From Candidatus Coatesiibacteriota bacterium (lineage in GTDB: Bacteria; RBG-13-66-14; B26-G2; WVWN01; G020348885): a stretch of 37,145 bases of DNA. The notes beneath the pieces were generated by a model. That model ran no database searches and was not told the DNA's origin. It saw nothing but the letters and a program-made list of their open reading frames with translations. A program made the position numbers and the translations under genes. Each line of letters starts with the position of its first letter. Within the stretch, counting starts at the first letter, position 1. The DNA is taken from contig CP070755.1 of the NCBI GenBank assembly GCA_020348885.1, forward strand, positions 1,067,568 through 1,104,712. Reading direction: 5' to 3'. This document shows, in pieces, positions 7,840 through 26,360 of the stretch.

Positions 7840-7868
7840 TTGACAACACAACATCAGTTGAGTATTAT
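7840..7868 (+). promoter_or_regulatory. Sigma-70 promoter of the second VOC gene
   Basis: TTGACA and TATTAT are separated by 17 bases. The predicted start is about 45 bases before the ATG at 7919, which also has a purine-rich ribosome binding site (GAGGAA). Copy 2 is therefore transcribed independently. Confidence 0.85.
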
Positions 7869-7918
7869 TCGTTAAGGTCGTTAAACTCGCTCTATAAACG
7901 AAAGGAAAGGACGAGGAA

Positions 7919-8281: not shown

Positions 8282-8334
8282 AAAAACCGGGTACGATACT
8301 ACGTATAGAGGGCTAAAGATTCAACTCGGCCGGG

Positions 8335-8364
8335 AATAAAACGCGGCGGGTTAACACCCGCCGC
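8335..8364 (-). terminator. Rho-independent terminator after apt
   Basis: Stem GCGGCGGG/CCCGCCGC with a six-base loop. On the minus strand it is followed by GTTTTATT, placing it at the end of the sigma factor-apt unit; the plus-strand VOC gene also converges here. Confidence 0.75.
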
Positions 8365-8385
8365 TTCCGTCAACAGGCGTTTGGA

Positions 8386-8904
8386 TTAGTACTTAATCAA
8401 CGAAACTATATCATAGTCGGCGATTTTTTCTCGTCCGTTCAGGAACTCCAGCTCTATAATGAAGCCGAAGCTGACTACTTCGGCGCCGCACCTCTCCACC
8501 AGTTTCGCGGTCGCTAGGGCCGTCCCGCCGGTCGCGAGCAGGTCATCGGCTATCAGCACACGTTTCGCGCCGTCGAACGCGTCCCGGTGGACCTGGAGCC
8601 GGTCGGTCCCGTACTCCAGCTCGTATTCCTCCTCGTGTACTTCGGCCGGGAGTTTCCCGGGCTTTCGTATCGGTACGAACCCGGCGCCTAATAAATACGC
8701 CAACGGCGCGCCTACGATGAACCCCCGGGCTTCCACCGACGCCACCGCGTCTATGTCGACATCGCGGTATATATCGTGGAGCGCCTCGACAGCGTCGCGA
8801 AAACCGCCGTCGTCCTTCAAAAGCGTCGTAATATCTTTGAAAATTATCCCCTCTTTAGGGAAGTCCGGCACGTCCCGGATCAACGATTTCAACCTTTCCT
8901 CCAC
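8386..8904 (-). CDS. apt: Adenine phosphoribosyltransferase
   Basis: Purine salvage enzyme converting adenine and PRPP to AMP and pyrophosphate in the cytoplasm. The 172-residue product has the expected N-terminus ([21 protein letters not shown]), the family segment [14 protein letters not shown], the RKPGKLP loop and the PRPP-binding motif [14 protein letters not shown]. Length is standard. The start is GTG at 8904 or TTG at 8907; AAAGGGG upstream fits either. It lies 16 bp downstream of the sigma factor gene and is likely co-transcribed with it. Confidence 0.97.
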
Positions 8905-12787: not shown

Positions 12788-13684
12788 TTAGTGATACCCT
12801 GCCTTAATCTCGCCCAGGGACGCTTCTTCCACGCTCGAGTACCCAACGGTGAACGACCAGACTTCGTCTGCCCCCATCTCATTACCCAGTCCGTCGGCCA
12901 AAGTCCCCGCTACGGTACAGGTTATCGTAGCGCCTTCGGGCAAGTCGCTGTCGGGTTCAAATATACAGATCACGTCGTTGGGATTGCTGTCGTCGATGTA
13001 AAGGGAACCGGGTATTTCAGCTCGTGTGCCGTCGTCCGCGGAGAAGTCGATACTTCCGCTTTTCACACCCTTATCGTCGTCCTTGCAGTGGAAGAATATC
13101 GACGTTTCAGGTACAGCCCAACCTCCGTCGGCCGGGTCCTGGCCGTCGACGTACGGGCCGTCCATATCGTCGTCTATTTTAACGCGGACCAACATATCGT
13201 AATAGTAATACGAAGTCCAGTTTGTACCGTCGTAAGTATACGCTACGCCGTGGTACGGGCTCGTAGTATCCAGTCCTATATAAGGTTCGTAACCTGAGTA
13301 GTACTGGATACCTACCCAGAACTTATCGCCGCCGGTTACCGTTATCTCTTCGCCGGTAAGGTCCACATACGGTGACCAGTGCCAAAAATCGCCCCCAAAA
13401 TCAAACCATTCATAACCCAGTAAGGTCCCGGGTAAATTGTAATACCCCGAATCGTCGTTCTCCCATACACCTACGGCTTTGTTCCCGTCCCCATAGACAT
13501 AAAACGAAGCGTTGATGACGTGGCAGTCAACCGGCGCTTCGAACCACTGAGCGCGACCGGCATAATCCAGCGACCAGTAGGTTTCCATCGTATCGTCGGA
13601 CTGTTGTAGAATTTGTTCCTCCCGACCGGCCAACGCGGGTGTCGCCACCGCCAACACGGCCACCAACAACAACACGTTTCTCAT
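12788..13684 (-). CDS. Exported mosaic protein A: beta-sandwich + one Ig-like domain + ASLGEIKAGYH tail
   Basis: 298 residues. A signal peptide (MRNVLLLVAVLAVATPALA) is followed by an aromatic-rich beta domain (about 20-170; ILQQSDDTME, FEAPVDCHV, DKFWVGIQY, GLDTTSP). A SbsA/Big_5-like Ig domain occupies about 172-282 (PYVDGQDPADGGW, FHCKDDDKGV, VWSFTV). The chain ends with SSVEEASLGEIKAGYH. The N-terminal domain is clearly related to that of the 21276-22562 product and the Ig domain to all family members; the second Ig domain is missing, the first joining the tail directly. It has its own consensus promoter and terminator. Surface exposure is inferred; function unknown. Confidence 0.85.
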   Translation of the reverse strand: MRNVLLLVAVLAVATPALAGREEQILQQSDDTMETYWSLDYAGRAQWFEAPVDCHVINASFYVYGDGNKAVGVWENDDSGYYNLPGTLLGYEWFDFGGDFWHWSPYVDLTGEEITVTGGDKFWVGIQYYSGYEPYIGLDTTSPYHGVAYTYDGTNWTSYYYYDMLVRVKIDDDMDGPYVDGQDPADGGWAVPETSIFFHCKDDDKGVKSGSIDFSADDGTRAEIPGSLYIDDSNPNDVICIFEPDSDLPEGATITCTVAGTLADGLGNEMGADEVWSFTVGYSSVEEASLGEIKAGYH

Positions 13685-13736
13685 ATCCCTTACCTCCCTT
13701 ATCGGTTCGATAGACCATTTACTCTACGTTTTGTTT

Positions 13737-13765
13737 ATTTTACGAAAGGCGACAAAAACGGTCAA
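13737..13765 (-). promoter_or_regulatory. Sigma-70 promoter of mosaic protein gene A
   Basis: TTGACC and TAAAAT on the minus strand are separated by exactly 17 bases, about 50 bases upstream of the start. GGGAGG precedes the ATG. Confidence 0.8.
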
Positions 13766-13788
13766 GCCTTATTAAACGACGGCCCCGT

Positions 13789-13812
13789 AAAAAAGGCGGC
13801 CTCTCGGCCGCC
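13789..13812 (-). terminator. Terminator after the 13837-15240 gene (copy 2 of six)
   Basis: GGCGGCC-TCTC-GGCCGCC with a six-base T-run on the minus strand. It lies only about 25 bases before the -35 of the next gene, insulating the two units. Confidence 0.85.
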
Positions 13813-13836
13813 TTCCCGCGCTTACTCAACCAGTGT

Positions 13837-15240
13837 TTAGTGATACCCGGCCTTAATCTCGCCCAGAGACGCCTCGTCCACGCTTACGTAACCCACGGTG
13901 AACGACCACTCGTACGGCGACGCCATCGTATTGCCCGCTATGTCGGTCGCCTGTACCGAAACGTCCACCACGTCGCCCGGGTTGAAATCGCTGACCGGGT
14001 CGAGGTCAACAGTTACGTCGGTAGTCCCGTCATCAGTTATGTTCTCTGCGACAGGTACATCTACGCCACCCACCTGAACCGAATATACGCAGTCGGCGAA
14101 CAGGCACCCGGCCGCGTTGTCCTCGATGTGCCAACCGATGTTGGTATCCGGGCCCGCGGTCCTGGTTCCGCCATCGGAGACAGTCGCTTTCGCAACACCC
14201 GTCCCGCCACCGATCGCGACGCGGGTAGCAGGTACGTAACCTCCGGTCCTGCCGCCGGTCGGGTATTCCTGCGTAATCGTGGGCGGCGTCGCGTCCACGC
14301 CAAAGGACCAGACTTCGTCGGCCCCCATCTCGTTCGTGAGGCCATCGGCCAGGGTCCCGGCCACGGTACACGTTATCGTCTCGCCTTCGGGCAGGTCGCT
14401 GTCGGGGGTGAAGGTACAGACCACGTCGTTGGGGTCGCTGTCGTCGATATCGAGCGAACCCGAAACGTCGGCCCTAGTCCCGTCGTCGGCGGAGAAATCT
14501 ATAGTCGCGCTGTCGACGCCGTAGTCGTCGTCCTTGCAGTGGAAGACTATGTCGGTGTCGGGCGCGGCCCAACCGCCGTCGGCCGGGTCCTGACCGTCGA
14601 CGTACGGCGGGTCCGCGTCGTCGTTAACGACGCCGCGAATCATCATAGCGCCGTAGCCATAAGCCGAGAAATCGGTCCAACTACTCCCGCCGAACCACAT
14701 CCAGCCTGAATATTGAGGTGCTCCCGAGTTCCCATCTTCGGGGCAGTACCAGGGGTAGCTCCCCCCGTAGCTGAAAAGAGTGATCCGGTCGCCGTTGGCG
14801 AAGAACGCGTGCTCGTCCAACACGTCGAAGACGGCCCATTCGTTATCGTACGGCCCCGAACCCGGGAACGTAACGTCGCCGCCGAAGTAGCTGTCGGTTT
14901 CGTCGGGCCGGTTGTAGGTTCCGTTCCAACCATAACAGTTCAACACTACGTCATGGGTCTGGCCGTAAGAATACGCGAATATGCTCATTTCGACGAGCCA
15001 GCAATCAAACGTTATATCGAACGAATCGCCGAACCCCGATGGGCCGCTCCAAAGGTATTGCCTACTTCCGTCGTCGTTTATCAGGTCGTGTTCGACCCGG
15101 GTTTGGGCCCCGTCGTACGGCGCGTAAATCCCCGAGCCCCCGCCGACGTCTTCGATGAGGTACGGCCCCAGCTCTATTTCCTTCGCGGCTACCGGAATGG
15201 CCAAAACCGCGACCCCTAGAACCAATAATATGTTTCTCAT
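13837..15240 (-). CDS. Exported mosaic protein B: variable N-domain + two Ig-like domains + ASLGEIKAGYH tail
   Basis: 467 residues. Signal peptide (about 1-19), a distinct aromatic N-terminal domain (about 20-205), Ig domain 1 (about 207-316; PPYVDGQDPADGGW, FHCKDDDYGV), Ig domain 2 (about 317-453; TPPTITQEYPTGG, GWHIEDNAAGC, ENITDDGTTDVTVDL, VSVQATDIAGN, WSFTV) and the tail VDEASLGEIKAGYH. From Ig domain 2 to the tail it is almost identical to the product of 15390-16787, whereas the N-terminal halves are very different, so the blocks have been exchanged or homogenised. Highly acidic and Ca-binding-like Asp clusters are frequent. Own promoter at 15293-15321. Role unknown; a cell-surface or released protein is inferred. 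Confidence 0.85.
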   Translation of the reverse strand: MRNILLVLGVAVLAIPVAAKEIELGPYLIEDVGGGSGIYAPYDGAQTRVEHDLINDDGSRQYLWSGPSGFGDSFDITFDCWLVEMSIFAYSYGQTHDVVLNCYGWNGTYNRPDETDSYFGGDVTFPGSGPYDNEWAVFDVLDEHAFFANGDRITLFSYGGSYPWYCPEDGNSGAPQYSGWMWFGGSSWTDFSAYGYGAMMIRGVVNDDADPPYVDGQDPADGGWAAPDTDIVFHCKDDDYGVDSATIDFSADDGTRADVSGSLDIDDSDPNDVVCTFTPDSDLPEGETITCTVAGTLADGLTNEMGADEVWSFGVDATPPTITQEYPTGGRTGGYVPATRVAIGGGTGVAKATVSDGGTRTAGPDTNIGWHIEDNAAGCLFADCVYSVQVGGVDVPVAENITDDGTTDVTVDLDPVSDFNPGDVVDVSVQATDIAGNTMASPYEWSFTVGYVSVDEASLGEIKAGYH

Positions 15241-15292
15241 ATACTTTCCTCCTTTGATAGTTTGATATTACGGTTTCCGATACATCTTTAGG

Positions 15293-15321
15293 ATAATATG
15301 ATAGTCGGTGGGATTTGTCAA
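15293..15321 (-). promoter_or_regulatory. Sigma-70 promoter of mosaic protein gene B
   Basis: TTGACA and TATTAT are spaced by 17 bases on the minus strand. The preceding ACGAAACGT and the downstream untranslated stretch around ATCGGAAAC are shared with the promoter at 16841-16869, showing that the regulatory region was duplicated too. Confidence 0.88.
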
Positions 15322-15342
15322 ACGTTTCGTTTCGACAACCTG

Positions 15343-15366
15343 AAAAAAGGCGGCCTTTCGGCCGCC
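15343..15366 (-). terminator. Terminator after the 15390-16787 gene (copy 3 of six)
   Basis: GGCGGCC-TTTC-GGCCGCC with a six-base T-run on the minus strand. Confidence 0.85.
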
Positions 15367-15389
15367 CGTTGATTCGGGTCCAGATGCGT

Positions 15390-16787
15390 TTAGTGATACC
15401 CGGCTTTTATCGTGCCCAGAGACGCGTCTTCCACACTCACGTAACCGACGGTGAACGACCACTCGTACGGCTCGGGCATCGTATTACCTGCCATATCGGT
15501 CGCCTGTACCGAAACGTCCACCACGTCGCCCGGGTTGAAGTCGCTGACCGGGTCGAGATCAACAGTCACGTCGGTAGTCCCGTCATCAGTTATGTTCTCT
15601 GCGACAGGAACATCCACGCCACCCACCTGAACCGAATATACGCAGTCGGCGAACAGACACCCGGCCGCGTTGTCCTCTATGTGCCAGCCGATGTTGGTAT
15701 CCGGGCCCGCGGTTCTGGTTCCGCCGTCGGAGACGGTCGCTTTCGCAACACCCGTACCACCGCCGATAGCCGCGCGGGTAGCAGGTACGTAACCTCCGGT
15801 CCTGCCGCCGGTTGGGTACTCCTGCGTAATTGTAGGCGGAGTAGAGTCGATGCCGAAGGACCAGACTTCGTCGGCCCCCATCTCGTTGCCCAGGCCGTCG
15901 GCCAGCGTACCCGGTACGGTGCAGGTTATCGTATCGCCCTCTGGCAGGTCGCTGTCAGGAGTGAAGGTGCATACCACGTCGTTGATGTCCTCGTAGTCAA
16001 TCTCGAGGGACCCTGATATTTCGCCTCGCGACTCGTCTTCTGCGGTAAACCCTACGGTATCGACGTTAATTCCCTTATCGTCGTCTTTGCAGTGGAAGAC
16101 TATGTCGGTGTCAGGCTGAGCCCAGCCGCCGTCGGCCGGGTCCTGCTCGTCGACGTACGGCGGGTCCATATCGTCGTCGATAATAACGCGGACTAAAGCG
16201 GCGCCGAATAGCACGTGGTACGCGCTCCAGTTGTTGGTGGTAAATTGCCACCAGTTGCTACCCTCCGGACCGCCGCTGCCGCCGCTGATAATGCCTTGGT
16301 CGTCGCTCGTGCCGGCTACGTTAAGGTCGTCCATGAACGGATGGAATACTTCGCCGTCGGAGAACGTTACGCCTTCGTAGGCCACGTCTATCTCGTTCCA
16401 ACCCGTGGTGCTCGGCGTGTATTCGATAGGGGCCGAGAAATAGGAATCGTTATGGTTCGGCGTCCCGCCGGAATCGCCGTAGCAATCGTGGTAATATGTG
16501 TGGCCCGAGCTTTTCAAATAGTACTTCAGCGTAGCCAGGTGGCAATCAGACGGCGCCGTGTAGGTAGAAGCCTGCCCCTTAAGACCGTAATGGCTCCAGT
16601 AATTAGTACCGTTATCGTGCGACATCTCGGTTTCCGTCCGCGATTCAAACACCCGGTACACGTCCGCCAGTGACGACGGGACGTTCTCGACTACCGACCT
16701 CACGCCGTCCGTCGTTATCTCGTACTCGACGGCGGCCGCCGGTATGGCGAGAGCCACGGCCATTAGAACTAGTAATACGTTTCTCAT
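15390..16787 (-). CDS. Exported mosaic protein C: variable N-domain + two Ig-like domains + ASLGTIKAGYH tail
   Basis: 465 residues. Signal peptide (about 1-19), an N-terminal domain (about 20-200) that shares only scattered features with its relatives (an aromatic/Gly core and YTAPSDCHLATLKYY, compare FEAPVDCHVINASFY in protein A), Ig domain 1 (about 205-314) and Ig domain 2 (about 315-450), the latter near-identical to protein B, and the tail VEDASLGTIKAGYH, the single variant with Thr for Glu. Preceded by AGGAGG and a consensus promoter, followed by the family terminator. It is most simply read as a surface protein with a variable binding domain on a conserved stalk; this is inference. Confidence 0.85.
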   Translation of the reverse strand: MRNVLLVLMAVALAIPAAAVEYEITTDGVRSVVENVPSSLADVYRVFESRTETEMSHDNGTNYWSHYGLKGQASTYTAPSDCHLATLKYYLKSSGHTYYHDCYGDSGGTPNHNDSYFSAPIEYTPSTTGWNEIDVAYEGVTFSDGEVFHPFMDDLNVAGTSDDQGIISGGSGGPEGSNWWQFTTNNWSAYHVLFGAALVRVIIDDDMDPPYVDEQDPADGGWAQPDTDIVFHCKDDDKGINVDTVGFTAEDESRGEISGSLEIDYEDINDVVCTFTPDSDLPEGDTITCTVPGTLADGLGNEMGADEVWSFGIDSTPPTITQEYPTGGRTGGYVPATRAAIGGGTGVAKATVSDGGTRTAGPDTNIGWHIEDNAAGCLFADCVYSVQVGGVDVPVAENITDDGTTDVTVDLDPVSDFNPGDVVDVSVQATDMAGNTMPEPYEWSFTVGYVSVEDASLGTIKAGYH

Positions 16788-16840
16788 TTCCTTTTCCTCC
16801 TTCTATGGTTTGGCGTTACTGTTTCCGATGCATCTTACGT

Positions 16841-16869
16841 ATTCTACTACAGATGACAGGGACTGTCAA
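16841..16869 (-). promoter_or_regulatory. Sigma-70 promoter of mosaic protein gene C
   Basis: TTGACA and TAGAAT on the minus strand with 17-base spacing. Flanks resemble the gene B promoter. Confidence 0.87.
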
Positions 16870-16890
16870 ACGTTTCGTACCGACAACCCG

Positions 16891-16915
16891 AAAAAAAGGC
16901 GGCCTTGCGGCCGCC
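16891..16915 (-). terminator. Terminator after a decayed mosaic gene (copy 4 of six)
   Basis: GGCGGCC-TTGC-GGCCGCC with a seven-base T-run on the minus strand. It now follows only the remnant at 16938-17003. Confidence 0.8.
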
Positions 16916-16937
16916 CGTTTTTCAGTTTAGGATGCGT

Positions 16938-17003
16938 TTAGCGATACCCGGCCTTAATCTCGCCCGGGGTCGCTTCCTCCACGGGCGAGGTTTACGTGAA
17001 ACC
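16938..17003 (-). pseudogene. Remnant of the 3' end of a mosaic exported-protein gene
   Basis: The minus strand reads GFT-stop-TSPVEEATPGEIKAGYR-stop, aligning with FTVGYSSVEEASLGEIKAGYH. An in-frame stop and substitutions show decay; nothing recognisable remains further upstream. The terminator at 16891-16915 sits in the expected place, so the tail and terminator outlived the gene. The rest of the 16788-17116 interval holds the gene C promoter and AT-rich sequence before the TPR gene. Confidence 0.8.
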
Positions 17004-17116
17004 GTCCGGCGTAACGTTTATTTCGGTTTTTCTACTTAAGTTAATATGGGCTTTTCAAAACGCCCCGTTCCGTAACCCGTGTGCTTAACCTATATAATCC
17101 CCGGAAGGAGTTTATT

Positions 17117-17998
17117 ATGAAACGTATTCTTATTCTAGCCGTTTCGGTTTTTACCGTGAGCGCCCTAACTGCAGGGGCTTTATCGGAGGCCGAGGAACTA
17201 AACGAGCAAGGGTTGGACTATTTCTACGAAGGAAAATACGACGAAGCCTTGGAATGCTTCGAAAAAGCCCTCGAGTTGGACCCGGAATACGCGGCGGCCT
17301 GGGACGGAAAGGGGCGCGCTTTCAACTACCAACAGAGGTACAACGAAGCGATGTGGAGCTTCGAAAAGGCCCTCGAATACGACCCCGATATGATAGACGT
17401 ATGGGTCCACAAGAGTTCCGTCCGGAACGCCCAGGGTTACTACGAGGAAGCGCTCGAGTACCTGGAAAAGGTACTGGCGGACGACCCCGACCACGTCCAC
17501 GCGTTGACGAACAAAGGCTGGTCGTATCTCGGTCTTGAGCGTTTCGACGAAGCATTGGCCCAGGTTGATAAAGGGCTGGAGTTGGACCCGGAGTTCGTAT
17601 ACGCGTACGTCATTAAAGCCTGGACGCTCCTGAACCTCGGGCGCCCGGCCGAAGCGTCCGAAAACTTCGATAACGCAATAGACCTGGACGTACTTCCGCC
17701 GGCCGAACTCACCGGCGTTTGGTTCGGCAAGAGCGCGGCTCTCACGGCGATGGGAGATTTCGAAGGCGCTATGGGTTTGTACGATAAAATCCTCGTACAG
17801 AACCCGGAAATCGCCGTGGCGTGGTACAATCGGGCGTGCCTGAAGAGCCTTTCGGGTAGGAAGGACGAAATGCTCACCGATCTCGCGCAGGCGATAGACA
17901 TGGCCCCGGAGCTCGCGGCGTCGGCTCAAACCGACGCCGACTTCGAGGCTTACTACGACGACCCCGATTTCCTTGAGTTGGTTAAACCTGCGGAGTAA
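17117..17998 (+). CDS. Exported TPR-repeat protein
   Basis: 293 residues from the ATG at 17117, chosen because GGAAGGAG is seven bases upstream and a signal peptide (MKRILILAVSVFTVSALTAG) follows; the frame opens 12 codons earlier without such support. About seven TPR units of 34 residues run from residue ~23 to ~270, with typical Y/A-x-A and P positions (YDEALECFEKALELDPEYAAAW, FDEALAQVDKGLELDPEF). The end (TDADFEAYYDDPDFLELV) matches a common C-terminus of exported TPR proteins. TPRs mediate protein interaction; a periplasmic scaffold is likely. It is the first plus-strand gene in a segment lying between mosaic-gene remnants. Confidence 0.9.
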   Translation: MKRILILAVSVFTVSALTAGALSEAEELNEQGLDYFYEGKYDEALECFEKALELDPEYAAAWDGKGRAFNYQQRYNEAMWSFEKALEYDPDMIDVWVHKSSVRNAQGYYEEALEYLEKVLADDPDHVHALTNKGWSYLGLERFDEALAQVDKGLELDPEFVYAYVIKAWTLLNLGRPAEASENFDNAIDLDVLPPAELTGVWFGKSAALTAMGDFEGAMGLYDKILVQNPEIAVAWYNRACLKSLSGRKDEMLTDLAQAIDMAPELAASAQTDADFEAYYDDPDFLELVKPAE

Positions 17999-18066
17999 CC
18001 TTACTTCGCGTAAAACCCGCTTAAAGGATATAAGGATATATTGACCCGACGGTATAAGGAGACGCG

Positions 18067-18612
18067 ATGAAACAAGAGTTCGACGGGAATATACTGAGCC
18101 CGCTACCTATCGTACTCCTCGGTACGCTAATCGACGAACGGCCGAACTACTGCGTAATCGGTTACATCTCGCCTTTCGACTTCGGGAACCACGTTTTCTT
18201 CAGCCTCTACAAAAAACGCTACACCCGCGTCGGTATCCAGGAGAATAAAACGTTCAGTGTTAACGTCCCGTCCGAAGACCTCATCGACGAGGTAAACATA
18301 TGCGGCAGCAAGTCGGGGCGGGATACCGACAAATCGATCCTTTTCGAAACGTTCTATGGAGAATTGGAAACCGCCCCTATGATACGCGAGTGCCCGCTCA
18401 ACATGGAGTGCCGCGTCACCGATATTCTCGATTACGACCCCAACGAAGGCATCGTCGGTAAGGTAATTAAATCCTATGCGAACGCCGACCTCGTCAAGGA
18501 CGATATTGTCGATATGCGAAGGGCGGGGCTTTTCGCTTGGACGATAGCCGGTGACTTCTCTTTCTACCGCCTCGGCGAGCAAATAACGTCCGAGAGCGAC
18601 GCCGAGGATTAA
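18067..18612 (+). CDS. Flavin reductase-like (FMN-binding split-barrel) protein
   Basis: 181 residues resembling the flavoredoxin/flavin reductase-like domain family: LSPLPIVLLGTLIDERPNYCVIGYISPFDF at the N-terminus, SLYKKRYTRVGIQENKTFSVNVPSEDLIDEVNICGSKSGRD in the FMN-binding part, and ECPLNMECRVTDILDYD. Members bind FMN without a Rossmann fold and act as small redox proteins or flavin reductases. AAGGAG lies six bases before the ATG. The V4R-like gene begins 46 bp downstream across a perfect palindrome, so the two may be expressed together. Partner electron donors are not visible here. Confidence 0.82.
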   Translation: MKQEFDGNILSPLPIVLLGTLIDERPNYCVIGYISPFDFGNHVFFSLYKKRYTRVGIQENKTFSVNVPSEDLIDEVNICGSKSGRDTDKSILFETFYGELETAPMIRECPLNMECRVTDILDYDPNEGIVGKVIKSYANADLVKDDIVDMRRAGLFAWTIAGDFSFYRLGEQITSESDAED

Positions 18613-18625
18613 GCGGCGTAATATC

Positions 18626-18645
18626 TTCTCGGCGAACGCCGAGAA
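18626..18645. promoter_or_regulatory. Perfect 9-bp-arm palindrome between the flavin reductase-like and V4R-like genes
   Basis: TTCTCGGCG-AA-CGCCGAGAA, ending 13 bases before the GTG at 18659. With a two-base centre it fits a dimeric-repressor operator better than a hairpin, and it abuts the ribosome binding region AAAGGA. No T-run follows, so it is not an ordinary terminator. Function unproven. Confidence 0.45.
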
Positions 18646-18658
18646 AGGAACCCGATAG

Positions 18659-19129
18659 GTGGACATAAGGAAACTGTTTACGGAATGGGCCGCGGCCCTT
18701 ATAGCGGGTTTGGACGCCGAAACGGACGACGAAACAAAAGCGCGCGTCATGGAGTATTGCGGTCGGGCCTGCGCCCTCACCTACGGGAGCATAGAAACGG
18801 CGAAAACAATCCGGAACGGCGTCAAGGAAATCGACGAGTTTTTGGACGAAATCAAACGCGTCGACGGCTTTTGGTGCGGGACGTGGGTAAGAGACGGCGA
18901 CATCGTTTACTCGATATGCGAAGATTGCGGTTGCCCTTTAGTTTTGGGCGGTTTGGTCGAACAGTCGCCGGTATTCTGTGACTGCTCCAGAGGTTGGGTA
19001 AAAGCGGTCTTCGAGGAGGTCTTCAGGGGGCCGGTCGAGGTGAAACTCGAGCAGGCCATCGGCCGGGGCGACCCGGTATGCAAGTTCGTCGTTTCTCCAG
19101 CCGGCCCTTCTAGTGATACCCCGCCTTAA
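18659..19129 (+). CDS. V4R / L-2-amino-thiazoline-4-carboxylate hydrolase-like Cys-rich protein
   Basis: 156 residues from a GTG start. The alpha-helical N-terminus with Cys34 and Cys38 leads to a Cys-rich middle (ICEDCGCPL, Cys87/90/92; FCDCSRGW, Cys107/109) and a closing FRGPVEVKLEQAIGRGDPVCKFVV, the last strand typical of the V4R/heme-NO-binding-like fold. Proteins of this sort have been annotated DUF6144 or L-2-amino-thiazoline-4-carboxylic acid hydrolase-like; the ligand is usually unknown and I cannot assign one. The final 11 residues or so (SPAGPSSDTPP) are encoded partly by antisense sequence of a mosaic-gene remnant, so the original stop was probably replaced during a rearrangement. 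Confidence 0.72.
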   Translation: MDIRKLFTEWAAALIAGLDAETDDETKARVMEYCGRACALTYGSIETAKTIRNGVKEIDEFLDEIKRVDGFWCGTWVRDGDIVYSICEDCGCPLVLGGLVEQSPVFCDCSRGWVKAVFEEVFRGPVEVKLEQAIGRGDPVCKFVVSPAGPSSDTPP

Positions 19130-19247
19130 TCTCGCCCAGGGACGCCTCTTCCACGTTCGTGTAACCTACGGTGAACGACCGCTCATAAGGCGCGGCCGTC
19201 GCGTTCCCGGCCAAATCGGCCGGCTGGACCGATACTTCGATAACCCC
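19110..19247 (-). pseudogene. 5'-truncated remnant of a mosaic exported-protein gene
   Basis: Forty-five codons on the minus strand read VIEVSVQPADLAGN ... PYERSFTVGYTNVEEASLGEIKAGYH then TAG, aligning without gaps to the end of Ig domain 2 and tail of proteins B, C and D. No start, signal peptide or promoter remains: sequence upstream is the promoter and leader of the plus-strand AsnRS-like gene. The family terminator is absent because the V4R-like gene abuts and overlaps it by 20 bases. The tail itself is intact. Confidence 0.88.
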
Positions 19248-19278
19248 GATAGCTATTAATTATGCTAATATTTTCCTC

Positions 19279-19307
19279 TTGACATATATCCTTTTTATTG
19301 TTATCTT
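19279..19307 (+). promoter_or_regulatory. Sigma-70 promoter for the AsnRS-like gene leader
   Basis: TTGACA and TATCTT separated by 17 bases. The predicted start near 19314 yields a leader of about 230 bases. Confidence 0.65.
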
Positions 19308-19542
19308 GACGTCCCAGGGACATCGAAAGTTGATCCGAAAGCGATCGACGGATATTTAACGTAATTCCAGATGTTCGCTGGGAATAAAAAAGAGACGCGA
19401 CTTAAAAGACGTGCGAACCCCCGTGCCGGCGGGGGTATCTTTTTAGTTTCGACTACAACTCCGTTAACCGGAGTAATTTTTTTGCCCGATTTTAACGGCT
19501 CCCTCCGGGGAGCCTTTCTTTAAAAAAGGAGGACGAGATACT
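19308..19542 (+). promoter_or_regulatory. Long structured 5' leader with three terminator-like hairpins
   Basis: After two small stem-loops (ATCCG/CGGAT near 19338-19358 and TTCCAG/CTGGGAA near 19366-19384) come three hairpins each followed by a T-rich run: CCCCCG/CGGGGG at 19418-19435 (tail TATCTTTTT), ACTCCG/CGGAGT at 19458-19474 (tail AATTTTTTT) and GGCTCCC/GGGAGCC at 19497-19514 (tail TTTCTTT). The ribosome binding site AAAGGAGG follows at once. This looks like transcription attenuation or a riboregulator. I could not match a known class; the T-box UGGNACCGCG element was not seen. Confidence 0.55.
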
Positions 19543-20388
19543 ATGAAAGACACGAAAGCGTATCACGAAGCGGTCGGCGGTTTACGGGCTTTTTTCGCGG
19601 CGAGAGGTTACGTCGAAGTACCGGTCCAACCAAGATTATCGATACTCGCGGCTTGCGAAGACCCGGACACTATAAGTATGTTCGAGTTCTCCGGCGAGGA
19701 ATGGCCGCTACCGCAGACCGGGCAGATGTGGCTCGAACGCGAGCTTTTGGAGAATCCCGGGTGGCCGGGCGTGTTCTGCATAAGCACGTCGTACCGAAAC
19801 GAGCCCAATCCGATACCCGGCCGCCACGACCTGATATTCCCTATGTTTGAGTTCGAGTCACAGGGCGATGTTAACGATCTGATCGAATTGGAAAGGGAGT
19901 TGTTGGTACGGACCGGCTTTTCACCGCCCATAATCCTTGAGTACGAGGACGTGTGTAGAACCTACGGCGTCGAGAGAATCGGGGCCGACGAAGAGACGGC
20001 GTTGCAGAGGGACTACGGCGACGAGGTAATAATCAAAGAATTCCCGTCCCGGAGCGACCCTTTCTGGAATATGCACGAGCTACCCGACGGGCTCTTCAGT
20101 AAAGTCGACGTCATACTCCACGGTATCGAAACCATCGGGAGCGCCCAACGAAGCTGCGACGCCGACGGGATGAGGAAGAATTTTTATTCGGTCAGCGGCG
20201 GCCGGTACGCCGAAAGACTGTTTGAGCTGTTCGGCAAAGAGAGGGTAATGCGCGAGCTGGACGACTACCTTTCTCTCGATATGTTCCCAAGGTTCGGCGG
20301 CGGAATCGGCCTGACCAGGTTGGCCAGAGCCATGAACATCATAGGAGAAGTTACCGGCAGCACGGTTGCTCAACCATCCATCGCTTAA
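19543..20388 (+). CDS. AsnRS-like class II synthetase catalytic core without anticodon-binding domain (putative asparagine synthetase-related enzyme)
   Basis: 281 residues. Class II aminoacyl-tRNA synthetase features of the Asp/Asn branch are present: motif 2 with Arg85 (FCISTSYRNEPNP ... FPMFEFES), the ALQRDYGDEVIIKEFP region matching AsnRS, and motif 3 (FGGGIGLTRLARAM, about 251-264). The N-terminal OB-fold anticodon domain is entirely missing; the protein begins at motif 1 (YHEAVGGLRAFFAARGYVEVPVQP). Archaeal proteins of this design (AS-AR) make asparagine from aspartate without tRNA, so an asparagine synthetase role is plausible; amino-acylation of another acceptor is the alternative. It is preceded by a structured leader and followed by a strong terminator, a regulated single-gene unit. 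Confidence 0.83.
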   Translation: MKDTKAYHEAVGGLRAFFAARGYVEVPVQPRLSILAACEDPDTISMFEFSGEEWPLPQTGQMWLERELLENPGWPGVFCISTSYRNEPNPIPGRHDLIFPMFEFESQGDVNDLIELERELLVRTGFSPPIILEYEDVCRTYGVERIGADEETALQRDYGDEVIIKEFPSRSDPFWNMHELPDGLFSKVDVILHGIETIGSAQRSCDADGMRKNFYSVSGGRYAERLFELFGKERVMRELDDYLSLDMFPRFGGGIGLTRLARAMNIIGEVTGSTVAQPSIA

Positions 20389-20410
20389 CGGGCCCATTAA
20401 GCGAGTATAA

Positions 20411-20462
20411 CGAGAGGTCCCGACGCCCGATAGTAAAAGGCGTACGGCTCTCGTGTTTTTTT
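20411..20462 (+). terminator. Terminator of the AsnRS-like gene
   Basis: CGAGAG ... CTCTCG encloses an inner CGCC/GGCG stem and is followed by TGTTTTTTT, 23 bases after the stop codon. Confidence 0.75.
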
Positions 20463-20782
20463 ATAAAAAACAACTCCCCACAAATCGATACGGCCGAATC
20501 TACCCAGCTGTCGTAAAAAATAAGAAAAACGGTAACGGCGCGGTTTATCCGCACCGACTCCGAGCTGGAGCCCGACCCCATTTTTCCGGCCCTCTTTATG
20601 GTAAAGGCGGAGCCTGTGGTCAGGCTTTTCGCTTCTTAAGGTAGTAAGCGGTTTCGCATTCTACGACCCACGTCGGCACTCTACTATAAATATATCAAAA
20701 ACGCTGCCGTCGTCTTAATTCACGGATTATCGAAAGTAATAAAAGAAGGACAGGCCCAAGCCTCTTCGAATATTCAACCTCG
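20463..20782. other. Intergenic stretch without a recognisable gene
   Basis: About 320 bases with A-rich runs and small stem-loops, for example AGCCTG-TGGT-CAGGCT followed by TTTC at 20611-20630 on the plus strand and GCGG-TTTAT-CCGC near 20541-20553. I looked for SRP RNA, 6S, tmRNA and RNase P signatures and did not find them. A small RNA cannot be excluded. Confidence 0.3.
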
Positions 20783-21163
20783 TTACTCGGTCTCCGGTTC
20801 TTCCGGCGCCGGTTCCTCTACGTACGGGCATGGCGGCATACCCATCATCTCCATGCCCGGGCCGTGGCTTTTGCCGTGAACCATGCCGCAAGATGGACAT
20901 TTGCCCTCTTCGAAGCCGCCGTGCATCATCTTGAAACATTTATAGCCGGTTCCGTACGGTCCCGGCTTCTCGCCGCAAGCGTACATAAACGCCCGCGTGA
21001 CCGTACACGCCGCGAGGAGCACAGCGAGGATAATTACGACGATCGCGACGACCTTTGCCAGCTTCCGCGGGCCGCCCTCGGCTCTCGCGGCCTTGAACCA
21101 CAAGATAAAGCCGAATACTACCGCCAAGAGCTCCAGACCCAGCGCGATATCCCATCCGTACAT
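20783..21163 (-). CDS. Small membrane protein with Cys/His/Met-rich C-terminus
   Basis: 126 residues from ATG at 21163 (AAAGGGGGTG seven bases upstream). Two membrane helices lie at about 7-25 and 36-55. The second is followed by a tail rich in Cys, His and Met: YACGEK, YKCFKMMHGG, KCPSCGMVHG, MEMMGMPPCP, then Pro/Glu. CPSC at 89-92 with His and Met around suggests a zinc-ribbon half-site or copper/heavy-metal binding. I do not recognise the family. It lies 3' of the terminator of mosaic gene D, with its own hairpin (GGCCCG/CGGGCC near 21212-21226) before it. Role inferred only. Confidence 0.7.
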   Translation of the reverse strand: MYGWDIALGLELLAVVFGFILWFKAARAEGGPRKLAKVVAIVVIILAVLLAACTVTRAFMYACGEKPGPYGTGYKCFKMMHGGFEEGKCPSCGMVHGKSHGPGMEMMGMPPCPYVEEPAPEEPETE

Positions 21164-21226
21164 ATACTCACCCCCTTTGCGTTTTCGTTTAACTAATAAT
21201 AACATAACGGGGCCCGAACCGGGCCT

Positions 21227-21251
21227 AAAAAAGGGCGGCCCCCCGGCCGCC
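21227..21251 (-). terminator. Terminator after the 21276-22562 gene (copy 5 of six)
   Basis: GGCGGCC-CCCC-GGCCGCC (extended by one G) with a T-run on the minus strand. Confidence 0.85.
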
Positions 21252-21275
21252 TTATAGTCTTACGTATCTATACCG

Positions 21276-22562
21276 TTAGTGATACCCTGCTTTAATCTCG
21301 CCCAGGGACGCTTCTTTTACGCTGGAGTAGCCTACCGTGAACGACCATTCGTACGCCGCGTCCATCGTGTTACCCGCGATGTCTGTCGCCTGTACCGAAA
21401 CGTCGACCACGTCGCCCGGGTTGAAGTCCGAATCAGGGTCCAGCTCGACCGTTACGTCGGTCGTCCCGTCGTCGGTGATGTTTTCGGCAACAGATACGTC
21501 GCCGCCGCCCACCTGGACCGTATAGACGCAGTCCGCGAACAAGCAGCCGGAGGCGTTGTCCTCGATGTGCCAGCCGATGTTGGTACCCGGGTCAACGGTC
21601 CTGGTTTCGCCGTCGTAAACGGTCGCTTTTGCGGCACGGTCGGACGGGTTACCTGAAACTACGCGCTTTGCCGTTGCGCCGCCTTCGCTCCGGCCGCCTG
21701 TCGGATACTCCTGGGTAATCGTGGGAGGCGTACCGTCAACACCGAAGGACCAGACCGCGTCCGAGCCCATCTCGTTGCCCAGACCGTCGGCGAGAAGTTC
21801 GTCTACGGTACAGGTTATCGTCTCGCCCTCGGGCAGGTCGCTGTCGGGAGTGAAAGTGCATACCACGTCGTTCGGGTCGCTGTCGTCAATGTCTAAAACA
21901 CCCGGTACGTCGGCCCTGGTGCCGTCGTCGGCGGAGAAGTCGATTGTCCCGCTGTCAACGCCCTTGTCGTCGTCCTTGCAGTGGAAGACTATGTCGGTGT
22001 CGGGTTGAGCCCAAGTAGTGTCGGCCGGGTCCTGCTCGTCAACGTACGGCGGGTCCATGTCGTCGTCGATTTTGACCCGGACCATCAGGTCCCAGGACGA
22101 AATAAAGTACCAGGAACTACCGTCGAACGAGTAAGCAATCCCGTGGTTCGGGCTGGTAGTATCCAACCCCAAATAAGGATAGCTTCCGGCGCTGTAAACG
22201 ATACCCACCCAGAACTTATCGCCGCTGGAAAGCGTTATCCCTTCGCCCGTAAGGTCCACGTAGGGCGACCAGGCCCAAGCGCCCGAAAAAGCATGGGAGA
22301 CCGAACCCAGTAGGGTCCCGGGCCTATCGGCGGAGTCATCCCACACCCCTACGTCTTTAGTTCCGGACCCATCACAATAGAACGAAGCGCTGACGACGTG
22401 GCAGTCGGCCGGTGCGTCGAACCACTGAGCCCACGACCAGTTATTCATAGACCAAGATATCTCCATCGTATCGTCGGATTGCTGCAGGATCGTCTCGGTC
22501 CGAACGGCCACGGCAGGCGCCGCTACCGCCAATACCGCTAAAACCAACAGTACGTTTCTCAT
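21276..22562 (-). CDS. Exported mosaic protein D: beta-sandwich + two Ig-like domains + ASLGEIKAGYH tail
   Basis: 428 residues. Signal peptide (MRNVLLVLAVLAVAAPAVA); N-terminal domain (about 20-165) close to that of protein A (ILQQSDDTME, FDAPADCHVVSASFY, DKFWVGIVY, GLDTTSPNHG); Ig domain 1 (about 168-277; PPYVDEQDPADTTW, FHCKDDDKGV); Ig domain 2 (about 278-413) like those of B and C but more diverged (TGGRSEGGATAKR replaces TGGRTGGYVPATR); tail VKEASLGEIKAGYH. It thus combines the N-domain of A with the two-Ig stalk of B/C, the clearest sign of module exchange. Own promoter at 22637-22665 and family terminator. Confidence 0.86.
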   Translation of the reverse strand: MRNVLLVLAVLAVAAPAVAVRTETILQQSDDTMEISWSMNNWSWAQWFDAPADCHVVSASFYCDGSGTKDVGVWDDSADRPGTLLGSVSHAFSGAWAWSPYVDLTGEGITLSSGDKFWVGIVYSAGSYPYLGLDTTSPNHGIAYSFDGSSWYFISSWDLMVRVKIDDDMDPPYVDEQDPADTTWAQPDTDIVFHCKDDDKGVDSGTIDFSADDGTRADVPGVLDIDDSDPNDVVCTFTPDSDLPEGETITCTVDELLADGLGNEMGSDAVWSFGVDGTPPTITQEYPTGGRSEGGATAKRVVSGNPSDRAAKATVYDGETRTVDPGTNIGWHIEDNASGCLFADCVYTVQVGGGDVSVAENITDDGTTDVTVELDPDSDFNPGDVVDVSVQATDIAGNTMDAAYEWSFTVGYSSVKEASLGEIKAGYH

Positions 22563-22636
22563 TTCCTTTCCTCCTCAGGTTGATTGAAAGAACGTTCTCT
22601 CTCTCCCGGCCCCCTACAAGCTGAGGTAACTACAAA

Positions 22637-22665
22637 ATAATATAGCGTTCTTACGGTCGAGTCAA
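22637..22665 (-). promoter_or_regulatory. Sigma-70 promoter of mosaic protein gene D
   Basis: TTGACT and TATTAT on the minus strand with 17-base spacing, about 75 bases before the start. Confidence 0.85.
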
Positions 22666-22737
22666 GCTAAAACCGCACACGTAATTAGAATAGTCAGGTA
22701 CTGCTTACGATTTTTTCCGTTATATAACGCTCACCAT

Positions 22738-22761
22738 AAAAAAGGCGGCCTTGCGGCCGCC
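22738..22761 (-). terminator. Terminator after the 22786-23301 gene (copy 6 of six)
   Basis: GGCGGCC-TTGC-GGCCGCC with a six-base T-run on the minus strand. It serves a gene outside the mosaic family, so this hairpin is a general terminator of the genome. Confidence 0.85.
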
Positions 22762-22785
22762 TAATGGCCAGTATATTTAATATAT

Positions 22786-23301
22786 CTACGCCGCCGATAA
22801 TAAGACACCGAGGAATAATAACACTACAATTAATACAAATATTACTCCCACCGCTAGGATTAATATAACAGCCACAGTAAGAACAATTATAAGAATAAAG
22901 GGAAGAAAGATTTCGGAAAAAGAACGACTTTTGATATGGGTGCTTTTATCAGACATGAACGAAGAATAGGCTTCCGGTTTCGATTTCGCCAACCCACTTA
23001 TCAAAAACGTGTGTTTTAGGGAGTCTATAAATTTTTTTATCTTCTCACGGTTTACACCTGAGTCGACGAGTGCCCACGGGACCTTCGATTCGCTGGCTAT
23101 TTTGATTATATTCTCCCGCGTAACGTCGACCGTAAGCCGAAAGCCGGGCCATTCTAACAAAGTTACGCAAATATCCGATTCGAAAATAAGAGGGGAGCGT
23201 TCCTCGCACCCTCCTAGTAGAAGAAGCGTCGCTTTAACGGCGTCGGTTATCTCTTCTTGCGAGAAGCCGTGTTGAACGGTTACTTCTTTACGTACGGCCA
23301 T
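22786..23301 (-). CDS. Hypothetical protein with C-terminal membrane segment
   Basis: 171 residues of unrecognised family. A soluble N-terminal part (about 1-110: [29 protein letters not shown], then [42 protein letters not shown]) resembles a small alpha/beta domain. A Ser/Lys-rich linker follows, and the last ~38 residues are almost purely Ile/Leu/Val/Phe, long enough for a helical hairpin. The end of the gene is markedly more AT-rich than its neighbours. AAAGGG precedes the ATG. It lies 64 bases after tRNA-Pro on the same strand, with a terminator between. Confidence 0.65.
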
Positions 23302-23330
23302 GGTACCCTTTCGCTAAAGCAACGCGGTAA

Positions 23331-23355
23331 TAAAAGGGACCCGCCCAGGGGTCCC
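23331..23355 (-). terminator. Terminator after tRNA-Pro
   Basis: GGGACCC-GCCCAG-GGGTCCC; the minus-strand tail is TTTTATTA. On the plus strand a T-run also follows, but no plus-strand gene ends here. Confidence 0.7.
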
Positions 23356-23365
23356 CTTTTTAACT

Positions 23366-23439
23366 TCGGGGCGAGAGGATTTGAACCTCCGACCCCCTCG
23401 TCCCGAACGAGGTGCGCTACCAGACTGCGCTACGCCCCG
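23366..23439 (-). tRNA. tRNA-Pro (anticodon CGG)
   Basis: Acceptor CGGGGCG pairs with CGCCCCG, discriminator A. Anticodon stem CTCGT/ACGAG-type with loop TTCGGGA gives anticodon CGG. The T arm contains GGTTCAAATCC. 74 bases, CCA not encoded. Confidence 0.95.
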
Positions 23440-23488
23440 AAATTTACCGGCGGGTTCTCTACCAACAATACCCCTGCCCGGCTACCGT

Positions 23489-23517
23489 ATTATACACGCC
23501 CGAGCGGCCGTTTTCAA
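23489..23517 (-). promoter_or_regulatory. Sigma-70 promoter of tRNA-Pro
   Basis: TTGAAA and TATAAT on the minus strand with 17-base spacing; predicted start about 43 bases before the mature 5' end. Confidence 0.8.
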
Positions 23518-23592
23518 GTCTTTTCCCGCAGGTTAGCGGTCACCTACCGGTACCCGAAGGCTATTGGAAACCGTTACCGCCGTCGGGCCGAC

Positions 23593-25236
23593 CTAAAAAC
23601 CGGCCTCTACGATAACCATCTTCCTGGCTTCCTTGAAACCGCCGGCCCTCAACTCGTAGACATAAACACCCGGCACGAGCGCTAGGTCCGCCGTTAGGGC
23701 AGTTTCCCCCGCTTCGGCCGGACCGTCGTACACCGTCGCGACCAGGCGCCCGGCTATGTCGTACACAGAAAGCGTCACCCGGCCGGCTTCGCCGGTCGTG
23801 AACCGGAACGTAACGGTCCCGCCGCTCGGGTTCGGGCGGACCGGCGCCAGGCTGTATACGCCGGCCGTCTCCGGAACCGTCGCCCGGACCGGCCCGTACG
23901 CCTCGGACGCGCCCGAGACTTCCACGGCCTCGAGCCAGTAGTCGTAAACGCCGCCCGGTTCCACGTCCCCGTCGGCGTAACGATAAGGCGACGCGCCGAC
24001 GATTAAACCGCCGTTAAGCCGCTCCCTCGCGGCGCCGGCGGACCGGTACAGGTTGAACCCGGCCAGGTCAGTCTCGTACGCGGTTTCCCACTCCACGTCC
24101 ACCGCTTTTGCGCCTACGGGCTCCGCCGTAAACGACGTCAATTCCACGCCGACGGTGTTCTCTATGAGCACGTTCATACACATCATCGCAAGGTAACTCG
24201 TAACCCAGGACTGGTCGTAGTCATCAGAGTCGTCGTCGTTGGCGGGTATGCCGCCGTCGGAGTCGCCGTCCTCGGCGGCAAGGAAGTCGGCCAGCGTCTC
24301 GAACTTGTCCCAATAGACGGCGCCGGCTCCGCCGTCGAACGCGGACCAGTGCCCCCACGCGAACCAACCCTTCCACGCGTTATCCCACCCGTAGATCGTA
24401 TCGACCGTATCGGGCAGGTACGCCGCGTACGTCGTCATCCACTCTTCACGCTCGCCCGGGTACGCCTGGAAGTACGAACGGTCCAACCCCCAGACGGTCG
24501 CGCCGCCGGACATAGCCCAGGAATGGAAACCTATCGTGGACTCGGGGTTCGATTCGGCCCACGTCTTTACTTCCTCGGCCCGGGCCAGGGCCTGCGCTTT
24601 CATCGCGTCGTCGCCTATATCCTCGGCGTATTCGTAAACGTTGCCAACGGCCCAGGCCGTACAATAGCCGTCATTCAACGAATTCAAGTCTATCGGGTTG
24701 TCGAGAAAGAACTCGGCGGACGCGATACCGTACCATTTGTAGGTATCGTCGCCGGTTACTTCCCTGTACATCCGCTCGCAGCGGGTCGCCCAGCCGCAGT
24801 TATAGACCCGGTAGTACTTGGAACCGGTATCCCAACCTTCCTCTTCGTACGCGGGGTGGTTCAAAATGTACGTCCAGGACCTGTCGGTGTACTCGTCGTA
24901 CTGGTCGTCGTCGGTCAGCTGGCGATAGCGGGACCATACCCATACGGACTCGGAAGTATTGTCGGTCTGGATGATGTCCTGATGAATAGGGTGTTCGCCT
25001 TCGCGAATCCCGCCGTAGTCGTCGCCGGGGTCCGTCACCTGCATAGTCGAGATGAAGTACGCAGCGTCGGCGAAGACCTCCAACGGATCGTACGCGCCGG
25101 TGCGGCCGCCGTAGCGCGAGTCGTACTCGTAAACCGCCGGCCCGGGGTCTTCGGCTATGAGCTCGTCCGGGACGAACTCAGTAGCGTGGGCGGTTACGGC
25201 TCCTACGGAGAGTATAATTATTAAAACGTTTCGCAT
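23593..25236 (-). CDS. Exported protein with type IX-like C-terminal sorting domain; probable helical-barrel N-domain
   Basis: 547 residues from ATG at 25236. The frame opens three codons earlier at a GTG, but GGGGTGA then sits at ribosome-binding distance of the ATG and the signal peptide begins MRNVLIIILSVGAVTAHA as in its neighbours. The region of about 40-330 is Trp/Tyr-rich with helical repeats (RSWTYILNHPAY, YRVYNCGWATRCERMYREVTGD, GYCTAWAVGNVYEYAEDIGD), reminiscent of an alpha/alpha barrel, but I cannot name the family. A fibronectin-like domain (WETAYETDLAGFNLYRS) follows, then about 80 residues of FlgD/Por type: LAPVRPNPSGGTVTFRF, LSVYDIAGRLVATVYDG, LVPGVYVYELRAGG. Own consensus promoter. 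Confidence 0.82.
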   Translation of the reverse strand: MRNVLIIILSVGAVTAHATEFVPDELIAEDPGPAVYEYDSRYGGRTGAYDPLEVFADAAYFISTMQVTDPGDDYGGIREGEHPIHQDIIQTDNTSESVWVWSRYRQLTDDDQYDEYTDRSWTYILNHPAYEEEGWDTGSKYYRVYNCGWATRCERMYREVTGDDTYKWYGIASAEFFLDNPIDLNSLNDGYCTAWAVGNVYEYAEDIGDDAMKAQALARAEEVKTWAESNPESTIGFHSWAMSGGATVWGLDRSYFQAYPGEREEWMTTYAAYLPDTVDTIYGWDNAWKGWFAWGHWSAFDGGAGAVYWDKFETLADFLAAEDGDSDGGIPANDDDSDDYDQSWVTSYLAMMCMNVLIENTVGVELTSFTAEPVGAKAVDVEWETAYETDLAGFNLYRSAGAARERLNGGLIVGASPYRYADGDVEPGGVYDYWLEAVEVSGASEAYGPVRATVPETAGVYSLAPVRPNPSGGTVTFRFTTGEAGRVTLSVYDIAGRLVATVYDGPAEAGETALTADLALVPGVYVYELRAGGFKEARKMVIVEAGF

Positions 25237-25283
25237 ATCAATCACCCCGTTTCGGATAAAGGACCTTTGAAGCGTCGTACGGG

Positions 25284-25312
25284 ATTATAACCACGCTTTA
25301 TCTACCCGTCAA
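25284..25312 (-). promoter_or_regulatory. Sigma-70 promoter of the 23593-25236 gene
   Basis: TTGACG and TATAAT on the minus strand with exact 17-base spacing. Confidence 0.87.
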
Positions 25313-25339
25313 GGACTATCGGGCTAAGCGTTAATAAAC

Positions 25340-25368
25340 TTGAGCAGGAACCACAGGAGTGTTATATT
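25340..25368 (+). promoter_or_regulatory. Sigma-70 promoter of the propeller-protein gene
   Basis: TTGAGC and TATATT with 17-base spacing, about 68 bases before the ATG at 25437; divergent from the promoter at 25284-25312. Confidence 0.75.
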
Positions 25369-25436
25369 TATACATAACTAAACGTTTAGATTATAAAATA
25401 TGCAAACCGAAACGCGGTTTTTTAAAAGGAGGGACT

Positions 25437-26360
25437 ATGTTTTCGGACGTTAACGCTAAACGCCTGTTAGCTATTTTAGCGGTCGTCTGCGCGTCCGCAA
25501 CCGCGACGGTCGCTACCGACTGGCTCTGGCAGGTTACCACGGACCCGGCCGGAGATAATGAACCTTCCTGGTCGCCCGACGGTACGACGATCGCGTTCAT
25601 GTCGAGCCGCAGTGGCAACCTCGACATCTGGACCATACCCGCCGGCGGCGGGACACCTACGCAGGTAACGACGGATACGGCCGCCGATGGGTCTGCTTCG
25701 TGGTCGCCGGACGGCACGACGATCGCGTTCAGCTCCACCCGCAGCGGCAACTTCGATATCTGGACCATACCCGCCGGCGGCGGAGCATGTACCCAAATAA
25801 CCACGGATCCGGCCTGGGATTGGTCCCCCTCGTGGTCGCCCGACGGCACGACGATCGCGTTCAGCTCCACCCGTAGCGGCAACGACGACGTCTGGACCAT
25901 ACCCGCCGGCGGCGGGACCCCTACTCAAATAACGACGGACACAGCCGACGACGGCTTCCCTTCCTGGTCACCCGACGGGACTACGATAGCTTTCGAATCG
26001 GACCGGAGCGGCAACTGGGATATCTGGACCATACCCGCCGGCGGCGGGACCGCTACCCAGATAACGACGGACCCGGCCGAGGATTATGACGCTTCCTGGT
26101 CGCCCGACGGCACGACGATCGCATTCACCTCGGCCCGCAGCGGTAACTGGGATATCTGGACCGTACCCGCCGGCGGTGGTACGGCTACGCAGGTTACTAC
26201 GGACCCGGATTACGATGGGTGGCCTTCCTGGTCGCCCGACGGCACGACTATCGCGTTCATGTCGAGCCGCAGCGGCAACACGGATATCTGGTGTATAAAA
26301 CCGGACTATGCGTCGATCGCACCGGCGTCCCTGGGCGAAATCAAGGCAACGTTTAAGTAG
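25437..26360 (+). CDS. Exported six-bladed PD40/TolB-type beta-propeller with ASLGEIKATFK tail
   Basis: 307 residues from ATG at 25437 (AAAGGAGG five bases upstream; the frame opens earlier without support). An N-terminal signal-type segment (about 9-27) is followed by six 44-residue PD40 blades, each with SWSPDGTTIAF, SxRSGN and DIWTIPAGGG. The blades fill residues ~32 to ~291 and give one complete six-bladed propeller like the TolB C-terminal domain, without a TolB N-terminal domain. The protein ends SIAPASLGEIKATFK, the same tail as the mosaic proteins although the rest is unrelated. A periplasmic or surface binding protein is inferred; blades are too alike to indicate a ligand. Confidence 0.88.
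   Translation: MFSDVNAKRLLAILAVVCASATATVATDWLWQVTTDPAGDNEPSWSPDGTTIAFMSSRSGNLDIWTIPAGGGTPTQVTTDTAADGSASWSPDGTTIAFSSTRSGNFDIWTIPAGGGACTQITTDPAWDWSPSWSPDGTTIAFSSTRSGNDDVWTIPAGGGTPTQITTDTADDGFPSWSPDGTTIAFESDRSGNWDIWTIPAGGGTATQITTDPAEDYDASWSPDGTTIAFTSARSGNWDIWTVPAGGGTATQVTTDPDYDGWPSWSPDGTTIAFMSSRSGNTDIWCIKPDYASIAPASLGEIKATFK
25530..26309 (+). repeat. Six tandem 132-bp repeats inside the propeller gene
   Basis: Units begin at 25530, 25662, 25794, 25926, 26058 and 26190 with exact 132-base periodicity; the last is slightly shortened and diverged at its end. Blocks such as ACCATACCCGCCGGCGG recur almost unchanged, so copy number could vary by recombination. Confidence 0.92.

Follow-up and report, generated by a model that had tools for sequence, protein, structure and literature searches.

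Tail-bearing genes in the window

The stretch of DNA analyzed here, termed the window, spans 37,145 nucleotides (G000:C1:1067568-1104712) of a single-contig 2.6-Mb Candidatus Coatesbacteria genome. Genes and gene remnants within it end in the same short C-terminal motif, called the tail, and two genes for exported proteins carry in its place a type A sorting domain of the type IX secretion system (T9SS). The features are listed below.

10066..11901, minus strand: exported protein with a T9SS type A sorting domain (TIGR04183) in place of the tail; comparison
12788..13684, minus strand: tail bearer, Big_5-type Ig protein with signal peptide, end ASLGEIKAGYH (tail codons 12791-12823)
13837..15240, minus strand: tail bearer of the same Big_5-type Ig family, end ASLGEIKAGYH (tail codons 13840-13872)
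15390..16787, minus strand: tail bearer of the same Big_5-type Ig family, end ASLGTIKAGYH (tail codons 15393-15425)
16938..16983, minus strand: remnant, tail codons only (ATPGEIKAGYR), with a 3' flank resembling the end of the 12788 gene
19110..19244, minus strand: remnant, final 44 codons of the Big_5-type Ig family, end ASLGEIKAGYH
21276..22562, minus strand: tail bearer of the same Big_5-type Ig family, end ASLGEIKAGYH (tail codons 21279-21311)
23593..25245, minus strand: exported protein with a T9SS type A sorting domain (TIGR04183) in place of the tail; comparison
25437..26360, plus strand: tail bearer, TolB-like (PD40-repeat) propeller with signal peptide, end ASLGEIKATFK (tail codons 26325-26357)

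The pattern G-x-I-K-x-x-[FY]-x-stop matches seven times in the window and never in 100 dinucleotide shuffles. These are the seven tails of the initial annotation, with minus-strand stops at 12788, 13837, 15390, 16938, 19110, and 21276 and the plus-strand copy at 26334-26360. Two of them had been described as decayed copies; their tails are present, and the extent of each is corrected here to tail codons plus ~40 bp of 3' flank only at 16938 and to 44 codons at 19110. The position of these Ig-family gene ends between intact genes suggests repeated duplication and loss in the array. The tail had also been said to occur on two unrelated architectures, the Ig family and the propeller, which is correct for the window. 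Because all non-propeller copies are one homologous family or scraps of it, the window alone provides only these two independent architectures, a number that the genome raises to 21.

Sequence and boundary of the tail

Genome-wide counts were obtained by pattern searches and from sampled stretches. G-x-I-K-x-x-[FY]-x-stop has 53 matches in the genome, all 53 at the ends of open reading frames, versus 0 for the reversed pattern. A relaxed pattern, with no stop and an S/T-like codon required, has 88 matches versus 7 in the control, and reading these in frame yields ~24 extra tails that stop 0-14 residues past the aromatic residue (0 to 9 in some bearers, 14 in one). Strict and relaxed searches together give ~77 tails, compared with only ~5-6 chance internal matches in annotatable reading frames. 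The motif is thus not mostly internal or cytoplasmic, and its bearers are enriched in signal peptides. Two extra residues past the aromatic (-FAE, -YAE, -FTE, or -FAQ) are found at L123, L109, L111, and L122, mostly in the Big_5-type group, and appear to be a group-specific variant of the tail.

The consensus over the genome is [IV]-x-P-[AT]-S-[LF]-G-x-I-K-A-x-[FY]-[RK]. It is wider than the ASLGxIKAx[YF]x consensus proposed initially, and the number of residues after the aromatic varies. Invariance of G, I, K, and [FY] is no independent evidence because these residues were preset in the search pattern; the independent positions are S at -8, P at -10, A at -2, and the basic last residue. Serine, absent from the first search pattern, is found in 52 of the 53 tails, proline in 39, and alanine in 40.

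When each of 21 families is given one unit of weight, conservation is at background level upstream of position -13 before the aromatic, and the rise in information content sets in with the block [NS][IV]x-P-[AT]-S-[LF]-G-x-I-K-A-x-[FY]-[RK]. Such an abrupt start argues against a longer shared C-terminal domain, and none was found among the bearers: conservation is confined to ~14 residues. The codons of the tail are mixed, with six for serine (from both codon families), three for isoleucine, and two for lysine. Selection on the protein is therefore indicated, and recent copying of DNA does not explain the tail.

In an AlphaFold2 model built from 8 sequences (mean pLDDT 55), the final strand spans 274-279, and residues 281-298 are unstructured and of low confidence. 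This weak model is no more than compatible with a free tail end. An amphipathic helix was considered and rejected, as the hydrophobic moment fails to separate helix from strand; given this and the low-confidence end of the model, no fold is claimed for the tail.

Bearer proteins

Signal peptides, called by a simple heuristic, are present in 52 of 62 complete bearers of at least 100 amino acids versus 60 of 213 background reading frames from a 240-kb sample (Fisher p about 1e-15). The count rises to 55 of 62 if the start is sought further in, and several exceptions are broken genes whose signal peptide sits in an upstream fragment.

Stripped of signal peptide and tail, 69 cores group into 21 clusters (BLASTP E<1e-4). 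The families are extracellular in kind and include PD40 and NHL propellers, Big_5 Ig domains, DNRLRE/CBM96, lamin tail, Cleaved_Adhesin, and choice-of-anchor J and R (Pfam, NCBIfam); one bearer is Omp28-like with a score below the curated cut-off. Among the families listed for 46 bearers (25 of 35 from Pfam and 25 of 34 from NCBIfam), no model covers the tail. In the product of a 42-codon reading frame (L125:89-214, minus strand; G000:C1 about 1804490), the tail comes almost immediately after a signal peptide (MSKKIAIIVAVILGLTLVGLVAASTVQDTSMGSIKAEFADVE); this product appears to be a minimal bearer with no passenger domain.

Apparent exchange with the type A domain

T9SS type A domains occur at 57 places in the window's genome. 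None of 40 type A proteins examined there carries the tail, and the Pfam families listed for 46 tail bearers (25 of 35) do not include PF18962. In one bearer (L187:4611-7082), FN3-like domains share up to 48% identity with those found ahead of type A domains. With the two ends mutually exclusive and a related core carrying either, they look interchangeable. Type A ends of the same genome read ...GVYVYKL...KKMVV and have no residues in register with ...SLGxIKAxFK; neither motif B nor motif D precedes the tail, judging by conservation over the 21 families. The tail lies outside the type A family because both tested defining features fail, namely the profile match and the ~70-80-residue domain with motifs B, D, and E, although it could function in a similar way.

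A C25 peptidase with a type A domain (L183:527-3226, plus strand) partially matches the PorU sortase model, below its cut-off, and is a candidate T9SS sortase of this genome from sequence.

Distribution and association with type IX secretion

The tail pattern is present in 14 of 14 Coatesbacteria genomes, with 2-53 matches each. In one Coatesbacteria family, threonine-tryptophan often replaces the serine-leucine pair, and the aromatic is the last residue of many proteins. A TWGxIK-type ending in other candidate phyla provided a lead that was tested by search. Across 386 genomes, TWGxIKxx[FY] has up to 19 matches per genome, and up to 18 outside Coatesbacteria, with the control near zero. On inspection of 30 such loci, 23 proved to be genuine C-terminal tails and 7 to be chance matches; most of the 23 sit on proteins that are evidently exported. 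At least two matches to this W-form were found in 17 sampled families, 16 of them outside Coatesbacteria. WOR-3 was rejected as a tail phylum, its 120 genomes being at background save for a few single TWG/SWG ends. A contig labelled WOR-3 (L052; NMUJ01000052.1) encodes a Coatesbacteria-type Ig protein with the tail and is likely misbinned.

SprA was found in 146 of the 386 sampled genomes, in 96 of ~258 sampled families (37%), and in 14 of 14 Coatesbacteria genomes. All 17 families with at least two W-form matches have SprA, versus 96 of ~258 overall (hypergeometric p about 2e-8, computed before allowing for phylogeny, the families not being independent). Similarly, verified tails lie in SprA-positive genomes in 22 of 23 cases versus 2 of 7 for chance matches (p 8e-4). 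The exception, G238, has a true tail and no detected SprA; given its 24 type A domains, SprA may have been overlooked there. Type A domains are present in all 26 tail genomes tested. Many SprA-positive genomes of the sample have no tail, and no tail gene was found near sprA in 20 genomes examined. At L134, L267, L269, and L276, from different families, sprA lies beside genes that by eye resemble LptF/LptG-type permeases.

A single-copy orthologous tail protein of ~130-165 amino acids is found in 11 genomes of about 10 families (L255:7034-7435, L256:6336-6764, L257:6903-7331, and L263 about 7862-8390 among its loci). It consists of a signal peptide, one domain that is FN3-like by eye, and the end ...TWG[SA]IKA[MLI]FR. 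In 4 of the 11 genomes it adjoins porD: G136, G186, and G459 have it directly downstream, and in G429 it is one gene away. The assignment of PorD rests on Pfam DUF4835 (above cut-off), NF052317 (below its equivalog cut-off), and TBLASTN. PorD is a T9SS component that binds PorW and is required for full T9SS efficiency in Porphyromonas gingivalis (PMC8754138). The linked tail protein is possibly an unrecognized T9SS accessory protein.

Proposed function and alternatives

That the tail is a real portable tag on exported proteins is nearly certain, and a sorting or attachment function of some kind is probable. Since the motif is not mainly internal or cytoplasmic and belongs to no longer domain, the sorting or anchoring signal of the initial annotation is upheld as the best reading; the recognition by machinery that it also proposed is still something that we infer. 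T9SS had been set aside there only for the absence of a FlgD/Por fold, and the data now point to it. Co-occurrence, gene neighbors, and exchange of ends give roughly even odds that T9SS serves the tail. The tag recurs in many related phyla with T9SS and thus has the appearance of a hitherto undescribed C-terminal label that addresses proteins to the cell surface.

A far-reaching reading, with a probability of about 0.45, is that the ~14-residue [IV]xPx[ST][WLF]GxIK[AS]x[FY][RK] routes exported proteins through T9SS or onto it in many non-Bacteroidota phyla, in parallel to the type A domain and with its own recognition partner. In the favored explanation, held at roughly even odds, the tail would be a short linear address signal ending Sec-exported proteins. 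After Sec export and removal of the signal peptide, the passenger would fold in the periplasm and leave its tail accessible. A component working with the SprA translocon, for which a PorV/PorQ-like barrel or a periplasmic adaptor are candidates, might then bind the G-x-I-K and aromatic residues. In this way the passenger would reach the cell surface or become attached to it, with the tail serving in place of a folded type A domain.

Several other explanations can be weighed against this T9SS-directed signal. The tail could mediate attachment at the surface or in the periplasm and be recognized by a separate machinery or receptor whose phyletic range only coincides with that of T9SS. The many T9SS genomes without the tail, the lack of clustering of tail genes with sprA, and the absence of any resemblance to type A domains fit such an arrangement; however, tail and type A domain swap on a related core, the single-copy bearer adjoins porD, and SprA is present in 17 of 17 tail-rich families, making it unlikely. 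Very improbable is a minimal relic or extreme short form of the type A domain that keeps only the motif E region with its lysine. In type A domains, the C-terminal 13 residues, which include a conserved lysine, are important for secretion; GFP can be exported with just 22 residues of HBP35 (PMC10202324); and type A domains shortened to 43-55 residues exist in Prevotella intermedia (PMC11969387). This origin would nonetheless have to accommodate type A ends of the same genome that share no in-register residues with the tail and the absence of motifs B and D before it.

A quality-control, retention, or degradation tag on periplasmic proteins, read by a PDZ-type protease or chaperone, would likewise be a short linear motif at the extreme C-terminus of Sec-exported proteins, but it is very improbable for bearers from extracellular-type families and for a tail that replaces a secretion domain on related cores. 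A functionless tail, made of gene ends spread through duplication and shuffling as the tandem paralogs and gene-end remnants of the window might suggest, is at odds with the mixed codons of its conserved residues and is close to refuted by the same residues recurring across phyla on unrelated proteins.

If the T9SS-directed signal is correct, T9SS, or a partner of it, reads a minimal signal, and a linear tag exists beside the type A domain in many phyla. The surface proteins of many uncultured phyla would become predictable from sequence, and the tail would be a very short portable tag for surface display.

Comparison with known sorting signals

No prior description of the tail was found in the open-access literature, subscription papers and preprints being outside that scope. 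LPXTG, PEP-CTERM, and GlyGly-CTERM are likewise short portable C-terminal tags recognizable from sequence alone. Their motifs must be followed by a hydrophobic helix and a basic end, whereas the tail has neither: in agreement with the initial annotation, bearers stop 0-14 residues past the aromatic with no hydrophobic stretch.

According to a recent review, T9SS signals occur only in Bacteroidota and are folded C-terminal domains (PMC10202324). The tail has neither the fold nor the motifs that known T9SS signals use to bind PorV and SprA (PMC10994853, PMC11969387). Type B (TIGR04131) and type C (ChiA-like) domains are alternative T9SS signals beside type A (PMC10202324); they comprise ~100 residues with motifs of their own, compared with ~14 residues for the tail, and no TIGR04131 or ChiA-type match is among the NCBIfam families listed for 46 bearers (25 of 34). 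The shortened type A domains of Prevotella intermedia resemble the tail as a shortened T9SS signal beside long ones in one genome; they form three strands and keep motifs B, D, and E, of which the tail has none (PMC11969387). The nearest known signals are these short domains and types A, B, and C, all folded and at least ~43 residues long (PMC10202324, PMC11969387). Unlike the tail, with its ~14 residues and other conserved positions, the type A domain (TIGR04183 / PF18962) is a folded unit of ~70-80 residues with motifs A-E, including D (GxY). Both are portable C-terminal elements of Sec-exported, mostly beta-structured proteins and occur many times per genome; the same genomes host both, and related cores carry either end.
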